Of a stretch of 64,000 nucleotides of DNA, positions 35,965 through 43,096 are shown one piece after another. Source of the DNA: Psychrobacter sp. JB385 (GTDB taxonomy: Bacteria > Pseudomonadota > Gammaproteobacteria > Pseudomonadales > Moraxellaceae); contig NZ_FUKN01000001.1 of assembly GCF_900163785.1 (NCBI RefSeq), positions 1 through 64,000 on the forward strand, written 5' to 3'. Positions within the stretch are counted from its first letter, which is position 1. Each line of letters opens with the position of its first letter. The notes beneath the pieces are model-generated. The model worked only from the letters and a program-made list of their open reading frames with translations. It was not told where the DNA came from and searched no databases. The translations under genes and the position numbers were made by a program.

Positions 35965-36789
35965 CTACGCTATACAAAATTGATCTAGCACAGCTTGTAT
36001 CCCAAACTCTTCAATCGTTCCTGTCACAAAATCTGCTCGCTCGATTAGGGCAGGTTTTGCGTCACCCATTGCCACAGCAAATCCGACCAGATCAAACATC
36101 TCAAGATCATTCATGCCATCACCAAATGCCATGCACTCGCGCACATCCACACCATAGTATGCACACATGTCTTTGATACCGCGCGCTTTGGATGCCTCAA
36201 TCGGTAAAATATCAGCACCGATATGATGCCAATGTACCAACTTCAAATCATATTTCTCAAAATCGACCTCTTGCATTTTGTCTTCTTGATCGTTGAAAAA
36301 TACCGAACACTGATAAACCGTATTTGACTTGTAGTATTCTGGATCAACGATAGAGTTGGGCGTTCTGGCATTATAGTCACGCAAACGCTCGTTTTCATCT
36401 GACCATACAATATGCGTCGCTGAGTCAAACTTATGAATAAGGTTACTTTGCTGACAAAGATAAGAAATCTTATCGGTCTGCTCAGTACTCAATGGGTAGT
36501 GGCTAATCATGCCACCGTGATCAAAACTGTATTGACCATTCATACAAATAATCGCATCCAAAATATTGGCATCCAGCAGTGCCAAAATGTCATTAGGCAA
36601 AATGGCTTTGGAGCGTCCAGTCGAAATCACAAGCTTAATATCCGTTTCTGCCAGCTGTTCAAGGGTTGCTTTATTATGCTCTGCGATAATTCCATTACGG
36701 CTCAAAGTATCATCGATATCAAAGAATATAATCTTAGGCGTGGTTACTTTATTCATTATCTCTTTTGCGATCTTATCTTTAATAAACAT
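35965..36789 (-). CDS. HAD-superfamily hydrolase, Cof type
   Basis: A haloacid dehalogenase-like phosphatase of 274 residues. The nucleophile motif is FFDIDDTL near residue 22, motif II is STGRS, and the C-terminal motif is GDGMNDLEMF, with the large C2-type cap in between. That is the Cof/YidA class, which acts on sugar phosphates, nucleotides or cofactors. ATG at 36789 with AAGGAT just upstream was preferred; the frame is open to 36858 but that extension looks non-homologous. The substrate cannot be predicted. Confidence 0.88.
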   Translation of the reverse strand: MFIKDKIAKEIMNKVTTPKIIFFDIDDTLSRNGIIAEHNKATLEQLAETDIKLVISTGRSKAILPNDILALLDANILDAIICMNGQYSFDHGGMISHYPLSTEQTDKISYLCQQSNLIHKFDSATHIVWSDENERLRDYNARTPNSIVDPEYYKSNTVYQCSVFFNDQEDKMQEVDFEKYDLKLVHWHHIGADILPIEASKARGIKDMCAYYGVDVRECMAFGDGMNDLEMFDLVGFAVAMGDAKPALIERADFVTGTIEEFGIQAVLDQFCIA

Positions 36790-37162
36790 GATTATCCTTC
36801 GTGATTTACACCCTAGGTGCGAGGGTGATAAAAATACAATGAGCCACATTGATGGCATTTGATTGCTTGTCTGTATTGGTTTTATCGTACCGTTTCATCA
36901 ATTGTAAGTGAAAATTTTTTTGACTAGATTGTGTAACGTATTGACAGCTGGTTTTGTTTAGTCAAACAATTGCACAGACTATGGTTGATTTTACTACTGA
37001 TGGCTATATATATATTCTACATATTTGCTTCAAGTTTTTTAGTAAAGCTAATCAATATTGTTTGATTATTGAATTTTAAGTGATCTATCAAAATATCGAT
37101 AACGCATATACGAGCACTACTAAAAGAGTGAGTGAGCAAAGCCAATTTATAAGGATAATACC
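36790..37162. other. Divergent AT-rich spacer
   Basis: The region between the HAD and hemerythrin genes holds no gene. It contains the inverted repeat TTGTTT-AGTC-AAACAA at 36954-36969 and an alternating TA run near 37008. Either could be part of a control region for the hemerythrin gene. Confidence 0.4.
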
Positions 37163-37735
37163 ATGACGACCTTTACTAAAAATTCAAACTCTCAAGAAGC
37201 CTTATCACCGCGTCATCCTGACAGTCGGCTTCAAGCGGATTGGCTGTTTTTGTATGATAAACTGCCTCCTGCCCAATGGTTCAGCGCACAGTATGTCTAT
37301 AAAACGTCAGGCTGGTTAAACATTCATGCCGATATACGTAAACGTCAGCATATCTTGACGCAGATTAGTGATGCCTATCATTCTGGTAGTATTGAATGGG
37401 CGCAATACCGTGTGCAACTCTTACCACGAATCAATCAGTATATTATGAAATTGCATCATCACCATAATATCGAGGATCAGGCGTATTTCCCAACGTTTAT
37501 TCGTATGTACCCGCAGCTAAAATCAGGCTTTGAGATACTGGATCGAGACCACATACACTTGGATACCATATTAAATGAGCTGCAAACGTTAAATGGCAAG
37601 CTTGCAAATAGTGAGGTGGAAAATAAAGCATTGGGGGAGCAACTGCACAAGATCTTGATTGACGTCAGCAATTTATTGTCTCAGCATCTGACAGATGAAG
37701 AGGATCTGGTGATTCCTATTTTGGGTTTGAATTGA
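37163..37735 (+). CDS. Hemerythrin HHE-domain protein
   Basis: A 190-residue soluble protein with a four-helix HHE cation-binding domain. Candidate di-iron ligands are His98-His101 with Glu104 (HHHHNIEDQAYFP), His130 and His132 (DRDHIHLD), and His175 with Glu179/Glu180 (HLTDEEDLVIP). Such proteins bind O2 or NO or sense them. An AAGGATAAT ribosome binding site precedes the ATG. It is 196 bases upstream of the first BLUF gene on the same strand, so a shared sensing role is possible but not shown. Confidence 0.85.
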   Translation: MTTFTKNSNSQEALSPRHPDSRLQADWLFLYDKLPPAQWFSAQYVYKTSGWLNIHADIRKRQHILTQISDAYHSGSIEWAQYRVQLLPRINQYIMKLHHHHNIEDQAYFPTFIRMYPQLKSGFEILDRDHIHLDTILNELQTLNGKLANSEVENKALGEQLHKILIDVSNLLSQHLTDEEDLVIPILGLN

Positions 37736-37832
37736 ACCTACAAGCAATAATAGAATAAACGTTCTAATTATTGATATAATATTTTCACATATTTTAAAAA
37801 GTACTGAGGCTGAATGGTCAGGATGTTATGAA

Positions 37833-38408
37833 AATACAAAAACATGGCAAAAGACGAAAAAATGTTATTGCGTGTATTTAGTATTAAATAGTATCTTAAT
37901 CTAAATGAATTTCTTATAAATAGGATTTCTGATGCAGACAAACACTCGCCATACTTCAGATAAGCATAAGAGAAATGGAGAGCATATTCTCATTAGCTTG
38001 ACTTATATTGCTAAAAAAACTGAAAAAAATTCAGGTGTAGAGTTGGCTCGTGCGCTTGAGCATTGGCGCAGATACTTTGAAAACAATCATATAACCTCAG
38101 CCTTGGTCGTTAATGATGATTATTTTATTCAAAATATTCAGGGTTCAAGACCTGCCATCAATCAGGCTTTGGCAAAAATAATCAGTGAGTATTTAGAAAT
38201 CTCACCCAATGTGATCGAGGTCGAAGAAATAGAAGTACGCACGTGGGATAAGTTTTTAATCAAGCATCTGACCTCAAGCGTTGAGGATGAGGAATATGCC
38301 TTGCAACATTTTTCAGCAGGTGCTGATTTTAATCCCTATTTGATGAAAAGTGTTCAGATTAGACGTTTTTTAAATGCCATTTTTGCAGAGGATAAAATTG
38401 TATCGTAG
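37833..38408 (+). repeat. BLUF gene duplication, copy 1 with upstream segment
   Basis: Both BLUF genes are preceded at nearly the same distance (99 and 98 bases before ATG) by a near-identical 23-base sequence starting AATACAAAAACATGG. The first 80 coding bases are also almost identical. The duplicated unit is therefore about 570 bases with a period of 828-829 bases; the second copy starts at 38662. Confidence 0.85.
37932..38408 (+). CDS. BLUF-domain protein, copy 1 (divergent flavin pocket)
   Basis: BLUF domains bind FAD and sense blue light. This 158-residue protein is a stand-alone BLUF of the short BlsA type, with a C-terminal helical part. Tyr25 (ISLTYIA) and Gln67 (YFIQNIQG) sit where the photoactive Tyr and Gln belong. 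However, the Asn that contacts the flavin (five residues before the ITG-like motif) is Phe49 here, and ITG reads ITS. The Trp and Met of the usual FxxWxM are Phe and Ile. It may be non-photoactive or tuned differently. ATG follows AGGAT. Confidence 0.8.
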   Translation: MQTNTRHTSDKHKRNGEHILISLTYIAKKTEKNSGVELARALEHWRRYFENNHITSALVVNDDYFIQNIQGSRPAINQALAKIISEYLEISPNVIEVEEIEVRTWDKFLIKHLTSSVEDEEYALQHFSAGADFNPYLMKSVQIRRFLNAIFAEDKIVS

Positions 38409-38759
38409 CTTAACTAAAGCTAGAGACAGGTTTTGATGTATCATTTTTAATAAGGAGCATCTGATAATTGCTCTGTCTTGTCGCTCAAAATCATAGAAAA
38501 ATGCCACTCATATCTTTTAATAATTAGCATAGCGCTGCTGCCTTGACTGAGCCAGCTTTCTACCACCACTGCTTTATAGTAAATGCCACCATATTACTTG
38601 TTTAATATCGCCATATTGCCTTCATAGGAATGGCGATAGCAGATTACAAGACAGTCATTAGAATACAAAAACATGGTAAAAGACAGACAAACGTTGTTGG
38701 CTATGTTCCGCTTTAGACGTTATCTTGATTAAATGAACTTTTTATATACTGGACTCCTT
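38409..38759 (+). other. Spacer between the BLUF genes
   Basis: No gene is visible in this 351-base spacer. Its last 98 bases belong to the duplicated upstream segment shared with copy 1 and presumably carry the promoter. The remaining 250 bases are not similar to the region before copy 1. Confidence 0.5.
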
Positions 38760-39218
38760 ATGCAGACAAACACTCGCCATACTTTAGAAAAGCATAAGAG
38801 AAATGGAGAGCATATTCTCATTAGCCTGACATATATTGGTAAAAATAGTGAAAAAAATAATGGCATAGAGTTAACTCGCATACTTGAACAGTGGCGAAGG
38901 AACAATGAAAAAAGCGATATTACTTCAGCGCTGGTCATCAATGATGATTATTTGCTTCAAAGCATAGAAGGATCAAGACCTATTATTAATGAAGTTTTAG
39001 CAAAACTGATCAATGAGTATTCGCACCTTTTGCCTCATATCGTGGAAGTCAAAGAGATCGAAGCACGCAAGTGGGATGGTTTTTTAATAAAGTACTTAAC
39101 CTCAAGCGCTGAAGACGAAGAATACGCACTAAAAAGCTTCTCAGCAGGTGCTGACTTTAACCCTTATCTCATGAAAAGCACGCAAATCACCAGTTTTTTG
39201 GATGCTATCTTTGCCTAG
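38662..39218 (+). repeat. BLUF gene duplication, copy 2 with upstream segment
   Basis: Second copy of the unit starting at 37833. It shares the AATACAAAAACATGG element 98 bases before the ATG, the region just before the start, and the coding start. The copies diverge progressively toward the 3' end. Confidence 0.85.
38760..39218 (+). CDS. BLUF-domain protein, copy 2
   Basis: A 152-residue short BLUF protein, paralogous to the gene at 37932. It keeps the canonical flavin-site residues Tyr25, Asn49 and Gln67, so it is the better candidate for a working blue-light sensor. The end EEYALKSFSAGADFNPYLMK resembles the C-terminal part of Acinetobacter BlsA. ATG at 38760 was chosen because it aligns exactly with the start of copy 1; an upstream ATG at 38733 would add nine residues. 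The PEBP-like gene follows after 24 bases, probably in the same transcript. Confidence 0.85.
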   Translation: MQTNTRHTLEKHKRNGEHILISLTYIGKNSEKNNGIELTRILEQWRRNNEKSDITSALVINDDYLLQSIEGSRPIINEVLAKLINEYSHLLPHIVEVKEIEARKWDGFLIKYLTSSAEDEEYALKSFSAGADFNPYLMKSTQITSFLDAIFA

Positions 39219-39242: not shown

Positions 39243-39758
39243 ATGAAAATTTTTACCTTAAAATCAATCCCTGCTTTGACGGCACTGGCAACATTGACAC
39301 TTTCTGTCACTGCGTTTGCGATGGATGTTAAGTTTACTGATGCCGCTTGGAATGGCAAAAAAATACCGGAAGGTCAGCAGTGTGTGAACTATGACGGCAA
39401 AAGCCCTGCTACACCAAGCATGACAGTCACAAACATTCCCGCGGGCGCAGAGAGTTTGGTATTCGTCTATAACGATGTGAGCAATAAACGTATGCAAAAT
39501 GGTGGCCATGGCATTGTAGAGTTTGCATTACCAAAAGGTGCCACGAGCGCTGAGGTGCCACGAGTGTTTGGTCATACCTATGAAGTACCAGTCGGTATTG
39601 AGATGATCGCGGAATATCGTAGCCGTAAAGGTGAGATAGGTGGTGCTTATAAACCGCCTTGCTCAGGTGGTAAAAACCATCTATATACGGTAGATGTGCA
39701 GGCGTGGCAAGGCGATACGGTACTTGCTGAAACAACGGTTGAGATGGGGCGTTATTAA
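39243..39758 (+). CDS. Exported PEBP-like protein
   Basis: A 171-residue protein with a signal peptide (cleavage expected after VTAFA, residue 26). The mature part shows features of the phosphatidylethanolamine-binding/YbhB family: SPATPSMTVTNIPAGAESLVF, a conserved His89 in GGHG, and YKPPCSGGKNHLY near residue 136. Cys47 and Cys140 could form a disulfide. An AAGGAAG ribosome binding site precedes the ATG. It directly follows BLUF copy 2, so expression may be coordinated with it. The molecular function of this family in bacteria is poorly known. Confidence 0.7.
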   Translation: MKIFTLKSIPALTALATLTLSVTAFAMDVKFTDAAWNGKKIPEGQQCVNYDGKSPATPSMTVTNIPAGAESLVFVYNDVSNKRMQNGGHGIVEFALPKGATSAEVPRVFGHTYEVPVGIEMIAEYRSRKGEIGGAYKPPCSGGKNHLYTVDVQAWQGDTVLAETTVEMGRY

Positions 39759-39899: not shown

Positions 39900-40775
39900 T
39901 TAATTAGCATCGAGGTATTGTATGACTTGCAAAAATGATTTGCCTAAATCATTCAATTCTAGTTTAAACATATATAAACCTACTTCACCACTCAAAACCT
40001 CGTACGGATAGGCTCTATTTCTTTTTAAGTTAGCTTTAGGGAAAATGCTATATACTGATTCACAAAGGTTATCTGCATAGAAGTCTTCGTCTAAATGTAC
40101 GGCAGCCCATGGATAAACGGTTTCAACTGCTTCAGTAATTTCATACCCAGAGTAAACAAAATTATTACTTTCAATAATTTCTTGAGTTCCATTAAGATTA
40201 GTTTTAATTAGCTGTACAAGACCACGACTCAGGGACTTGTGTAGCCAGTCCTCCTTTTTTACTTGTAAAGTGCCTCCATTGTCTAGAAATTCCATAAGAC
40301 CTGCATGAAGCAGTAAATTTCGATATCGTACTTCAAACTTTGTACCATCAGCAATACTACTGAGAGTTAATAAAGACGTTTCATTAAGCAATTGTGACTT
40401 CGGAATTTTAATTTTCCACGATTTTTCAGTCATTTCAATAGAGTCTTTGGATATTTCTACCCAACAAATTTGTTTGTTTTCGGGAAGGTAACTAATTAAA
40501 ATGACTGGTAATGAATGTTTCAACCAGTATTCTAAATGAGTAATTGAGCCGTAATATACTAAATGATCGGTTTTATCTTTGAAGTGACTAGCACCTGTTT
40601 TTATTTGGACTCCCAGTAATCTACCAGTTGGGTTTTTGTTAAAGTCGACTACTTCGATATGTGCATCAATACCCATATCTACAATCGGTTGTTCACGAAA
40701 AATCCATCCTAAAGATGAAATTTTATTTTCAATGGCGGACACACCAATTCTTTCAGTTGGACTATATCTACTCAT
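39900..40775 (-). CDS. DUF4365-domain protein, PD-(D/E)XK nuclease-like
   Basis: A 291-residue protein whose N-terminal 130 residues match DUF4365, a family with a restriction-endonuclease-like fold. The expected residues are visible: Glu16, Asp37 in [10 protein letters not shown], and Gln57-I-Lys59 in GVQIKTG. The C-terminal half is not recognised. Related genes often occur in defence and mobile contexts. The DNA is clearly more AT-rich than parC. Its ATG overlaps the parC TGA by four bases, so it is translated as the second cistron of parC. A nucleic-acid role is inferred, not shown. Confidence 0.75.
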
Positions 40776-43096
40776 AACCCAACCTCAACACTCGTCACAT
40801 TCTGAAAGCCTCTTGGCAACTGACCACCGCGATTACCACGAGTGCCTGTATAGTTGGCCAAATCATTTGACTTTAGCGTCACATGACGTTTGCCAGCGGT
40901 AATGACAAGGCTGTCTTGCTGATTCAGTGGCGTGATAGCGAGTACTTCTTCACCGTCTTTTAACTTAATCAATTTGTTGCCTTTACCGCGTGCTTGTTCA
41001 GGCAAATCATCAAGAGCAAATATTAATAGATATCCTGCGTTGGTCACAACAGCGAGATGGTCTGGTGCCGCGTTTGCACGACTGCTGGTTGTTTCATCAT
41101 TGTCATCACCACCATTGGTAACCATATCTGCTGGTGCATCGATACGTGCAACTGGTAGCAAGCGACTGTCTGGCGTTAAAGTGATGATGTTTTTACCCGC
41201 TTTCTGATTACTATCGAGATTACCAAGGGTATTGATAAACCCATAACCTGCTGAGCTGGCGAGAATGATACGTTGAGCATTATCACCTGTGAGTAACTGC
41301 TCGAAGCTCGCACCAGCGGGTGGCTTCAACACACTGGTCAGCGGATCGCCCTGACCACGCGCGGAGGCGAGGTTGTGTGCATCGATACTGTAGCTGCGTC
41401 CCGTACTATCGAGGACGTAGATTTTTTCATTAGATTTACCACGCACATGCGCCTGATAACTATCCCCTGAACGATAACTCATACCAGCGGCATCGACGTC
41501 ATGGCCTTTGGCCGCGCGAATCCAGCCTGCTTTGGACAGGATGGCGGTGACAGGCTCGCTCGGTACGAGGTCTGACTCTTTTAGTGCTTGCGCTTCTTCG
41601 CGTTCTGCCAATGGTGACACACGCTCATTGCCGTGCTCTTTCATATCGGCGGTCAGCTCATCGATCATCAGGTTAGTCAGACTGTCTGGATTGTCCAGGT
41701 ACTCTTGAATGATGGCGCGTTCAGCGGCCAACTCGTCTTGCTCGCGGCGCAGTTCAATCTCTTCTAATCTTGCCAATTGACGCAGACGAATATCCAAGAT
41801 GGCATTGGCTTGAATGTCAGTCAGGTCATAGTCCTGCATCAATGTCGCTTTTGGGTCGTCTTCTTCACGAATGATGCGTATCACTTCATCGATATTGAGA
41901 TACGCAATCAATAAACCTGCAAGGATGTGCAAGCGCTTATCGATTTTATCAAGGCGATATTGCAGACGGCGCGTGACCACTGAGCGGCGACAAATGAGCC
42001 ATTCTTCTAAGATTTCTTTTAGATTTTTGACCTGCGGCTTACCGTTTAGGCCAATCATATTCATATTGACGCGGTAGTTGCTCTCAAGATCGGTACTGGC
42101 AAACAGATGACTCATCACACGCTCAACATCGACGCGCGTGGAGCGTAGCTCAAGGACGATACGACAAGCGTTCTCATGATCTGACTCATCATGAATATCG
42201 GTAATCCAAGGCAGTTTTTTGTCCGTCATGAGCTTGGCGATTTGCTCTTGGATTTTGTTGCCTGAGACTTGATAGGGCAGCGCATCGATAATGACTAAAT
42301 TTTTCTCTTTAGGGTCGATATGAAAAGTCGCGCGCATTTTATAACTGCCACGCCCCGTCTCATACATCGCTTGTAAGTCTTTTTTGCTAGTGATGATTTC
42401 CGCTGGCGTTGGCAAGTCTGGCGCTGGTATTGACTGAGTTAGCTGCTTAACCGATAGTTCTGGATTTTTCAGTAATCGAATGGCAGCACGTACCACTTCG
42501 TTTAGGTTATGCGGCGGAATGTCGGTTGCCATGCCGACCGCGATACCTGTGGTACCGTTCAATAAAATATTAGGCAAGCGGGCAGGTAGTGTAGTTGGCT
42601 CCTGCATCGTACCGTCGAAGTTATCTTGCCAATCGACCGTACCTTGTCCTAGTTCTGCGAGCAATGTATTGGCATAAGCAGACATTTTGGCTTCGGTATA
42701 ACGCATGGCCGCAAAGGACTTAGGATCATCAGGGCTACCCCAGTTACCTTGACCCGTGATGAGCGGATAGCGATAGCTGAACGGCTGTGCCATCAGCACC
42801 ATGGCTTCATAACACGCGCTGTCACCATGTGGGTGGTATTTACCGAGCACATCACCGACCGTACGCGCAGATTTTTTCGCCTTGGCAGAGGATTTTAGCC
42901 CAAGCTCGCTCATGGCGTAGACAATACGGCGCTGCACAGGTTTTAGGCCGTCAGCGATATTTGGCAGCGCCCGATCCATGATGACGTACATAGCATAATT
43001 GAGATAAGCCTGCTCAGTGAATTCCGCGACTGAGCGGGTATCCATCGGTTCACTTGGAATGATTGGGGCAACAGTAGGATCAATAACATCGGACAT
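40772..43096 (-). CDS. parC: DNA topoisomerase IV subunit A
   Basis: ParC is the DNA-cleaving subunit of topoisomerase IV, which decatenates chromosomes. The quinolone-resistance region is [15 protein letters not shown], with Ser93 and Glu97 (E. coli S80 and E84) unmutated. The catalytic Tyr133 lies in [11 protein letters not shown]. The C-terminal beta-propeller domain follows (about 520-774) with GxxRGxxGGQLPRG-type blades. 774 residues rather than the roughly 750 of E. coli. parE is not adjacent. A DUF4365 gene overlaps its stop codon. Confidence 0.96.

Follow-up and report, generated by a model that had tools for sequence, protein, structure and literature searches.

The window analysed here is a stretch of 64,000 nucleotides from Psychrobacter sp. 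JB385, and its centre of interest is a pair of stand-alone BLUF genes lying in tandem on the forward strand (Table 1). The initial annotation had described the two genes and their upstream segments as a direct duplication with a period of about 828 bases, and the repeat units and upstream segments that we delimited agree with this description. In the open reading frame listing copy 2 starts at an upstream ATG, at 38733; we used the ATG that matches the start of copy 1, at 38760, which gives a coding sequence from 38760 to 39215 with the stop codon extending to 39218. The two proteins are 71% identical and align without a gap, so the assignment of position 49 is unambiguous: its context is WRRYFENN in copy 1, where the residue is Phe, and WRRNNEKS in copy 2, where it is Asn. 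The alignment also confirms the earlier observation that Tyr25 and Gln67 are found in both proteins.

Table 1. Features of the tandem BLUF locus and its borders (positions in the window).
Feature	Position	Strand	Remarks
Cof-type HAD-IIB phosphatase	35965..36858	-	Left border of the locus
Hemerythrin HHE-domain protein	37163..37735	+	Neighbour at some array loci
Duplicated upstream segment, copy 1	37825..37900	+	76 nt, 71% identical to the copy 2 segment, spacing 829
Promoter-like block TTGCGT-N18-TATCTT	37868..37897	+	Consensus match only; lies 64 nt ahead of the copy 1 ATG
Direct repeat unit 1	37902..38201	+	300 nt, 77% identity with unit 2, spacing 828
Copy 1, F-type stand-alone BLUF protein, 158 aa	37932..38408	+	Tyr25, Trp45, Tyr48, Phe49, Gln67, Gln70, Phe108, Ile110
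Duplicated upstream segment, copy 2	38654..38729	+	76 nt, partner of the copy 1 segment
Promoter-like block TTGGCT-N18-TATCTT	38697..38726	+	Consensus match only; lies 63 nt ahead of the copy 2 ATG
Direct repeat unit 2	38730..39029	+	300 nt, partner of unit 1
Copy 2, N-type stand-alone BLUF protein, 152 aa	38760..39218	+	Tyr25, Trp45, Asn48, Asn49, Gln67, Glu70, Phe108, Ile110
PEBP/YbhB-like protein	39243..39758	+	Pfam score under the cut-off; located upstream or downstream of the array in relatives
DNA topoisomerase IV subunit A (presumably parC)	40772..43096	-	Right border of the locus

Both proteins pass the cut-off of 25 of the Pfam BLUF model PF04940 (38.0 bits for copy 1, 52.6 bits for copy 2); none of the NCBIfam BLUF models matched either copy. 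AlphaFold2 models of copies 1 and 2 (mean pLDDT 78.2 and 76.7, pTM 0.74 and 0.73, respectively) predict for both a BLUF fold (beta-alpha-beta-beta-alpha-beta-beta) followed by C-terminal helices like those of PixD, and the closest PDB matches of both are PixD proteins. The right border gene was named parC from its sequence. Between the PEBP-like gene and parC, the window also encodes a DUF4365 protein (39900-40775, reverse strand), residues 9-147 of which align with the beginning of the PADLOC model Aga_REase-PNTD1-PNTD2 (E 9e-26); at a threshold of 60 bits, the window is alone among the 53 loci described below in having it.

The two copies share the Tyr and Gln of the BLUF photocycle, and they differ at the flavin-contacting Asn, which is replaced in copy 1 and present in copy 2. 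The Trp and Met of strand beta-5 are absent from both, Phe108 and Ile110 standing in their place, and in copy 1 Gln also replaces Glu at position 70. Copy 2 keeps Asn49 and Glu70; nevertheless it lacks Ser27 and Gly56, as does copy 1, and like copy 1 it carries Trp45. Judged by its residues, copy 2 is thus non-canonical, too. In our own alignment Trp45 corresponds to Ser41 of AppA, a flavin neighbour, and it may clash with the flavin. By residue volumes, the exchange of Leu41 and Asn49 for Ala41 and Phe49 would be approximately volume-neutral, which we mention as a thought only.

At least one BLUF match was found in each of the 105 genomes of the genus, and copy 1 used as a query matched 73 of them at E <= 1e-10. 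Array-type copies (E <= 1e-40) were present in 53 genomes, including the window's own, and one further genome (G061) added a fragment only. The locus set therefore comprises 52 fetched array loci and the window; many of these 53 genomes are closely related, so the numbers below count loci and should not be read as independent events. The related loci that come from named genomes, 27 in number, all belong to Psychrobacter records, and a genome search assigned these relatives to the genus of the window. When the array alignment was searched against 299 genomes of the family, array-strength matches were restricted to the genus itself, the best match elsewhere reaching E 5.7e-22. The window's own genome has six BLUF genes, and the four outside the pair (L001-L004) keep Asn.

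Across the 53 loci, the array sits between the HAD phosphatase and parC wherever both borders are within reach. A hemerythrin-like or PEBP-like neighbour was matched at 45 loci, some of the other eight ending at the end of a contig. Copies with Phe49, termed F-type, and of at least 140 residues occur at 49/53 loci; those with Asn49 (N-type), at the same length, occur at 27/53. The layouts vary widely: F alone (20 loci), F-F-N (12), F-N (4), F-F (3), N-type plus a Leu49 copy (3), one other layout seen twice and nine seen once. One locus, L064, has only a Leu49 copy, which falls inside the F clade. At 23 loci the F-type is the only type, and 22 of these reach both HAD and parC (L108 stops at a contig end); no N-type match above 45 bits was found at the 22. 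Since the F-type is held by 49 loci, the N-type by 27, and 22 loci with both borders in view have the F-type only, the core gene of the locus, and the more widely kept one, is that with Phe49 and not that with Asn49. The gene family grows and contracts, and the window pair represents one of its states. Damaged copies are also found at the locus: N-type copies at L084 and L086, a copy with Thr at position 49 and a broken frame at L085, a 52-residue remnant at L083 that lacks position 49 and is F-type by its other residues, and several broken pieces of both types at L090. At L079, copy 1 is an N-type protein in which Lys replaces the photocycle Gln67, and it adjoins a Leu49 copy.

The window copies differ by a dN of 0.195 and a dS of about 2.07, which is saturated. 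Because synonymous sites are saturated, the duplication is old. Both types also occur in other species, between the same HAD-phosphatase and parC genes. A tree of 108 rows (104 different) was built with positions 48, 49 and 70 masked, and in it copy 1 belongs to a clade (SH-aLRT 99) of 61 Phe49/Gln70 rows, one Phe49/Glu70 row and the Leu49/Gln70 row of L064. With position 49 thus kept out of the grouping, 62 of the 63 distinct rows of the copy 1 clade have Phe49 and one has Leu, which answers in the affirmative whether Phe49 is conserved in the orthologues of copy 1. The F clade is nested inside the N-type array copies, and the array is separated from canonical Psychrobacter relatives with a support of 100. 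A more careful tree of 55 rows recovered the F clade (100/99), again inside the N-type copies, and the array clade (100/100); many forks among the N-type copies are weak, and the long rows of L067 (copies 1 and 2) are unsurely placed. The best trees show two independent losses of Asn49, one in the F clade and one in a Leu49 clade of three rows, but a single loss was not rejected (AU p 0.08), and we therefore do not claim two.

For residue and selection counts the F, N and L classes were defined by residue 49 itself, so that Phe49 in 65/65 and Asn49 in 29/29 rows are circular. Among the 65 Phe49 rows, Tyr25, Trp45, Tyr48 and Gln67 are each invariant, Gln70 and Ala41 are each found in 64, and Phe49 is encoded by TTT in 63 rows, by TTC in the other two. 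The 29 Asn49 rows have Glu70 in all, Gln67 in 28 and Trp45 in 24. The median of pairwise dN/dS values, taken over pairs with a dS of 0.1 to 1.5, was 0.133 for the Phe49 rows (1354/2080 pairs) and 0.164 for the Asn49 rows (223/406 pairs); it was 0.135 for the canonical Psychrobacter BLUF outgroup (20/78 pairs). Such values, together with the near-constancy of the residue in its clade, exclude the case in which Phe49 would be unique to this genome and accompanied by decay. The initial annotation had seen in the pair a working sensor next to a pocket-altered paralogue. The second half of this picture stands, copy 1 being both altered and maintained; the first is not supported, copy 2 being altered as well. 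Indeed, since both copies are altered, and since the more altered one has no N-type neighbour in many genomes, a working sensor plus an altered partner is too simple a description.

Both window copies are preceded by a promoter-like block, and copy 1 of a related locus (L065) carries the same block as copy 1 of the window. Searched with a loose pattern, 46 of 95 upstream regions (92 distinct) contain such a block, with a spacing of 18 in 43 of the 46; the other 49 gave no match. A TTGATT-N18-TATNTT block, mostly 64 nt before the ATG, recurs at L073, L078, L087, L103, L104 and other array loci. Some F-type blocks carry an AT-rich dyad (ACTTTATNATAAAGT-like) within the spacer; it stands out in these blocks only, and not in that of copy 2. 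Since BluF of E. coli is described as acting on the MerR-like repressor BluR (PMC3509220), an operator in the promoter spacer is conceivable, and by this analogy the dyad is a lead to a MerR-type operator.

How unusual the array is was judged against a wide sample of 99 BLUF rows taken from elsewhere in the phylum, outside the genus, about 96 of them distinct in sequence. Its first part consists of 70 rows (30 loci and 40 stretches) that are strong family matches, and its second part of 30 loci from 16 genomes that were selected because their matches were weak or numerous; sequence was obtained for 29 of these 30 loci, and L238 (E 4.9e-4), which gave none, was dropped. Two of the 29 duplicate places of the first set, and L236 and L241 cover one broken gene. 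As the sample was drawn from family matches, BLUFs that have drifted below family detection would be missed. Asn49, Ser27 and Gly71 are each present in 99/99 rows, Tyr25, Gln67, Glu70 and Gly56 each in 97/99, and His89 in 95/99; all 99 have Ala, Ser, Cys or Thr at position 45. The beta-5 residues are not strictly universal, Trp108 being found in 90/99 and Met110 in 86/99. From the commonest residue the F-type departs at positions 27, 45, 49, 55, 56, 70, 86, 88, 89, 108 and 110, among others, and the N-type at 27, 45, 56, 86, 88, 89 (where His is kept in 12/29), 108 and 110, among others.

Within the array, all 69 rows without Asn (65 Phe, 4 Leu) have Trp45, and Asn is kept in all five N-type rows whose residue 45 is Ala or Ser. 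As read from the sequences, these five branch off first within the array clade (support 83; 95/87 in the careful tree), which suggests that Trp45 arose before Asn was lost. Elsewhere in the wide sample, two genomes of one genus of another family (G389 and G597) have nine and eight BLUF matches (L223, L224, L239, L240, L242-L252). One of these, L252, has Phe for the photocycle Tyr and Ser for Gln, and keeps Asn. In two genomes of one genus, L231 and L233 have a beta-5 strand free of Trp and Met, and Ser for Gly at position 56; they are possible parallels of the Psychrobacter array.

The nearest known systems are the PixD proteins (Tll0078/TePixD, Slr1694), which the window copies resemble in fold, in length, in the C-terminal helices and in keeping the photocycle Tyr and Gln. 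PixD proteins are the best structure matches of both models, and the copy 1 model superimposes on TePixD over 136 residues (rmsd 1.8, Z 19.6). However, identity in these structure matches is 22-27%, both copies lack the beta-5 Trp and Met and have Trp at 45 and Ser at 56, and copy 1 lacks the equivalent of Asn32. BlsA of Acinetobacter, also a member of the Moraxellaceae, is likewise a short BLUF protein with a matching fold (Z 15.8-16.1), but its residue aligned with position 49 is Asn and its beta-5 strand has Trp-Ser-Met. In a published tree, the Psychrobacter sequence used there did not group with the Acinetobacter BLUFs (PMC3554667). BLUFs encoded elsewhere in Psychrobacter genomes (L116-L123) are 40-46% identical and form the outgroup of the array clade; they differ from it in that 13/13 rows retain Asn49, Glu70, Trp108 and Met110. 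At five of these eight loci (L116, L118, L119, L121, L123) there is a second tandem BLUF pair, both copies of which keep Asn, Trp and Met.

One review (PMC5899715) reports that the flavin C4=O is contacted by the Asn as well as by the Gln of BLUF proteins, and that in one BLUF photoactivity survived the replacement of Asn but not that of Gln. According to the same review, Met93 of PixD carries the signal, its Ala mutant keeping the red shift with function locked; the Trp91 to Phe exchange slows recovery about 50-fold; and the dark-state oligomer of PixD dissociates to dimers in light. For AppA, a second review (PMC4630285) states that Trp or Met mutants disrupt signalling and not the red shift, that Ser41 affects spectra and dark activity, and that no functional studies of the Asn were available. 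LOV receptors lacking an equally conserved Gln (PMC9098866) offer a parallel. Among the matches listed in a literature search over titles and abstract openings, which leaves most subscription papers outside, nothing concerned a tandem BLUF array or natural BLUFs without Asn.

Taken by its sequences, the window pair is part of a clade of small BLUF proteins, PixD-like and tandemly duplicated, which in this analysis occurs in Psychrobacter only. An evolutionary scenario may be suggested: the beta-5 Trp and Met would have been lost first, on the stem of the array clade, Trp would then have entered at position 45, and the F-type, later the core copy, would have exchanged Asn49 for Phe along with a Glu70 to Gln change and an Ala at position 41. 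The F-type, predicted still to fold as a BLUF, would hold the flavin by aromatic contacts from Trp45, Phe49 and Phe65, would run the Tyr25-Gln67 hydrogen-bond switch in blue light with a changed spectrum and changed kinetics, and would have as its output the binding of a partner protein, not the usual Met route. We give slightly less than even odds (roughly 0.47) to this reading, in which the array encodes maintained PixD-like proteins with a stepwise-rebuilt flavin pocket, conserved Tyr-Gln photochemistry and a non-Met output. The predicted fold, the conservation and selection, the phylogeny and the distribution are shown by the data, and the sequence of the changes, the binding of flavin, the response to light and the partner are inferred. 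The mutants of PixD and AppA reviewed in the papers cited above (PMC5899715, PMC4630285) are what makes a maintained regulator of this kind, with changed tuning, plausible. The best argument from sequence that flavin chemistry goes on is that, across the array clade as a whole, few columns vary less than those of Tyr and Gln: over 98 array rows, Tyr25 (98/98) is one of 10 invariant columns out of 97, and Gln67 (97/98) is among 13 columns with at most one exception. Within the F-type alone 26/97 columns are invariant, and the joint invariance of Tyr and Gln there is therefore only mildly improbable by chance (about 0.07).

The best argument against continued flavin chemistry is the number of flavin-site residues that the F-type has lost: Ser27, Asn49, Gly56, Glu70, His89 and the small residue at position 45. 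The F-type may instead be a flavin-free pseudo-photoreceptor, its pocket filled by Trp45, Tyr48 and Phe49, which would serve as a dark binding module or sense another ligand while the BLUF fold is kept for oligomerisation and partner binding. We regard this as the next most credible explanation and as a serious competitor. It would account for the loss of the Asp86/Arg88/His89 group along with Ser27, Asn49, Gly56 and Glu70, and it agrees with the constancy of Asn in the wide sample (99/99); that Asn stays even in L252, where Tyr and Gln are gone, points to a role in holding the flavin. However, there would be little reason to keep both Tyr25 (98/98) and Gln67 (97/98) without a flavin. Moreover, Trp45 alone need not mean an empty site, since it is common to 24/29 N-type rows that retain Asn49 and Glu70. 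That the F-type is a BLUF-derived regulator whose flavin site was rebuilt for another ligand or for none, under long purifying selection beside a half-converted N-type, appears a little less probable still, and somewhat unlikely overall.

It was also proposed that copy 1 is a regulatory subunit in a hetero-oligomer with copy 2, for instance in a mixed PixD-like ring. The tandem arrangement, the 71% identity, the likeness to PixD and the light-dependent dissociation of the PixD oligomer (PMC5899715) speak for this idea; against it, each window copy has its own promoter-like block by consensus match, and copy 2 is itself non-canonical. As a requirement, an Asn-bearing partner from the array is contradicted by the 22 loci that reach HAD and parC with the F-type only and with no N-type match above 45 bits. 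A hetero-oligomer might form where both copies exist, or with BLUFs encoded elsewhere, as BLUF matches occur in all 105 genomes of the genus, but we consider either form improbable. Finally, the view of copy 1 as a decaying duplicate with Phe49 a neutral accident could appeal to the broken or shortened copies at L083, L084, L085, L086 and L090, yet decay, like sequencing error, is refuted as the source of Phe49 by its presence in 62/63 clade rows, the dN/dS of 0.133 and the F-type of at least 140 residues kept at 49/53 loci.

Among the BLUF rows sampled outside the genus, the flavin-contacting Asn (99/99) varies slightly less than the photochemical Tyr and Gln (97/99 for each). A clade that has kept Tyr and Gln over long evolution without Asn, Trp and Met separates the needs of photochemistry, of the flavin site and of the output strand. 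If the flavin site of the F-type had indeed been rebuilt for another ligand or for none, then one genus would show the stages from photoreceptor to pseudo-photoreceptor. Because the Asn-less copy is not decaying and is the more widely kept one, the Psychrobacter array is a natural test of what BLUF sensors need, and it supplies ready-made protein pairs.
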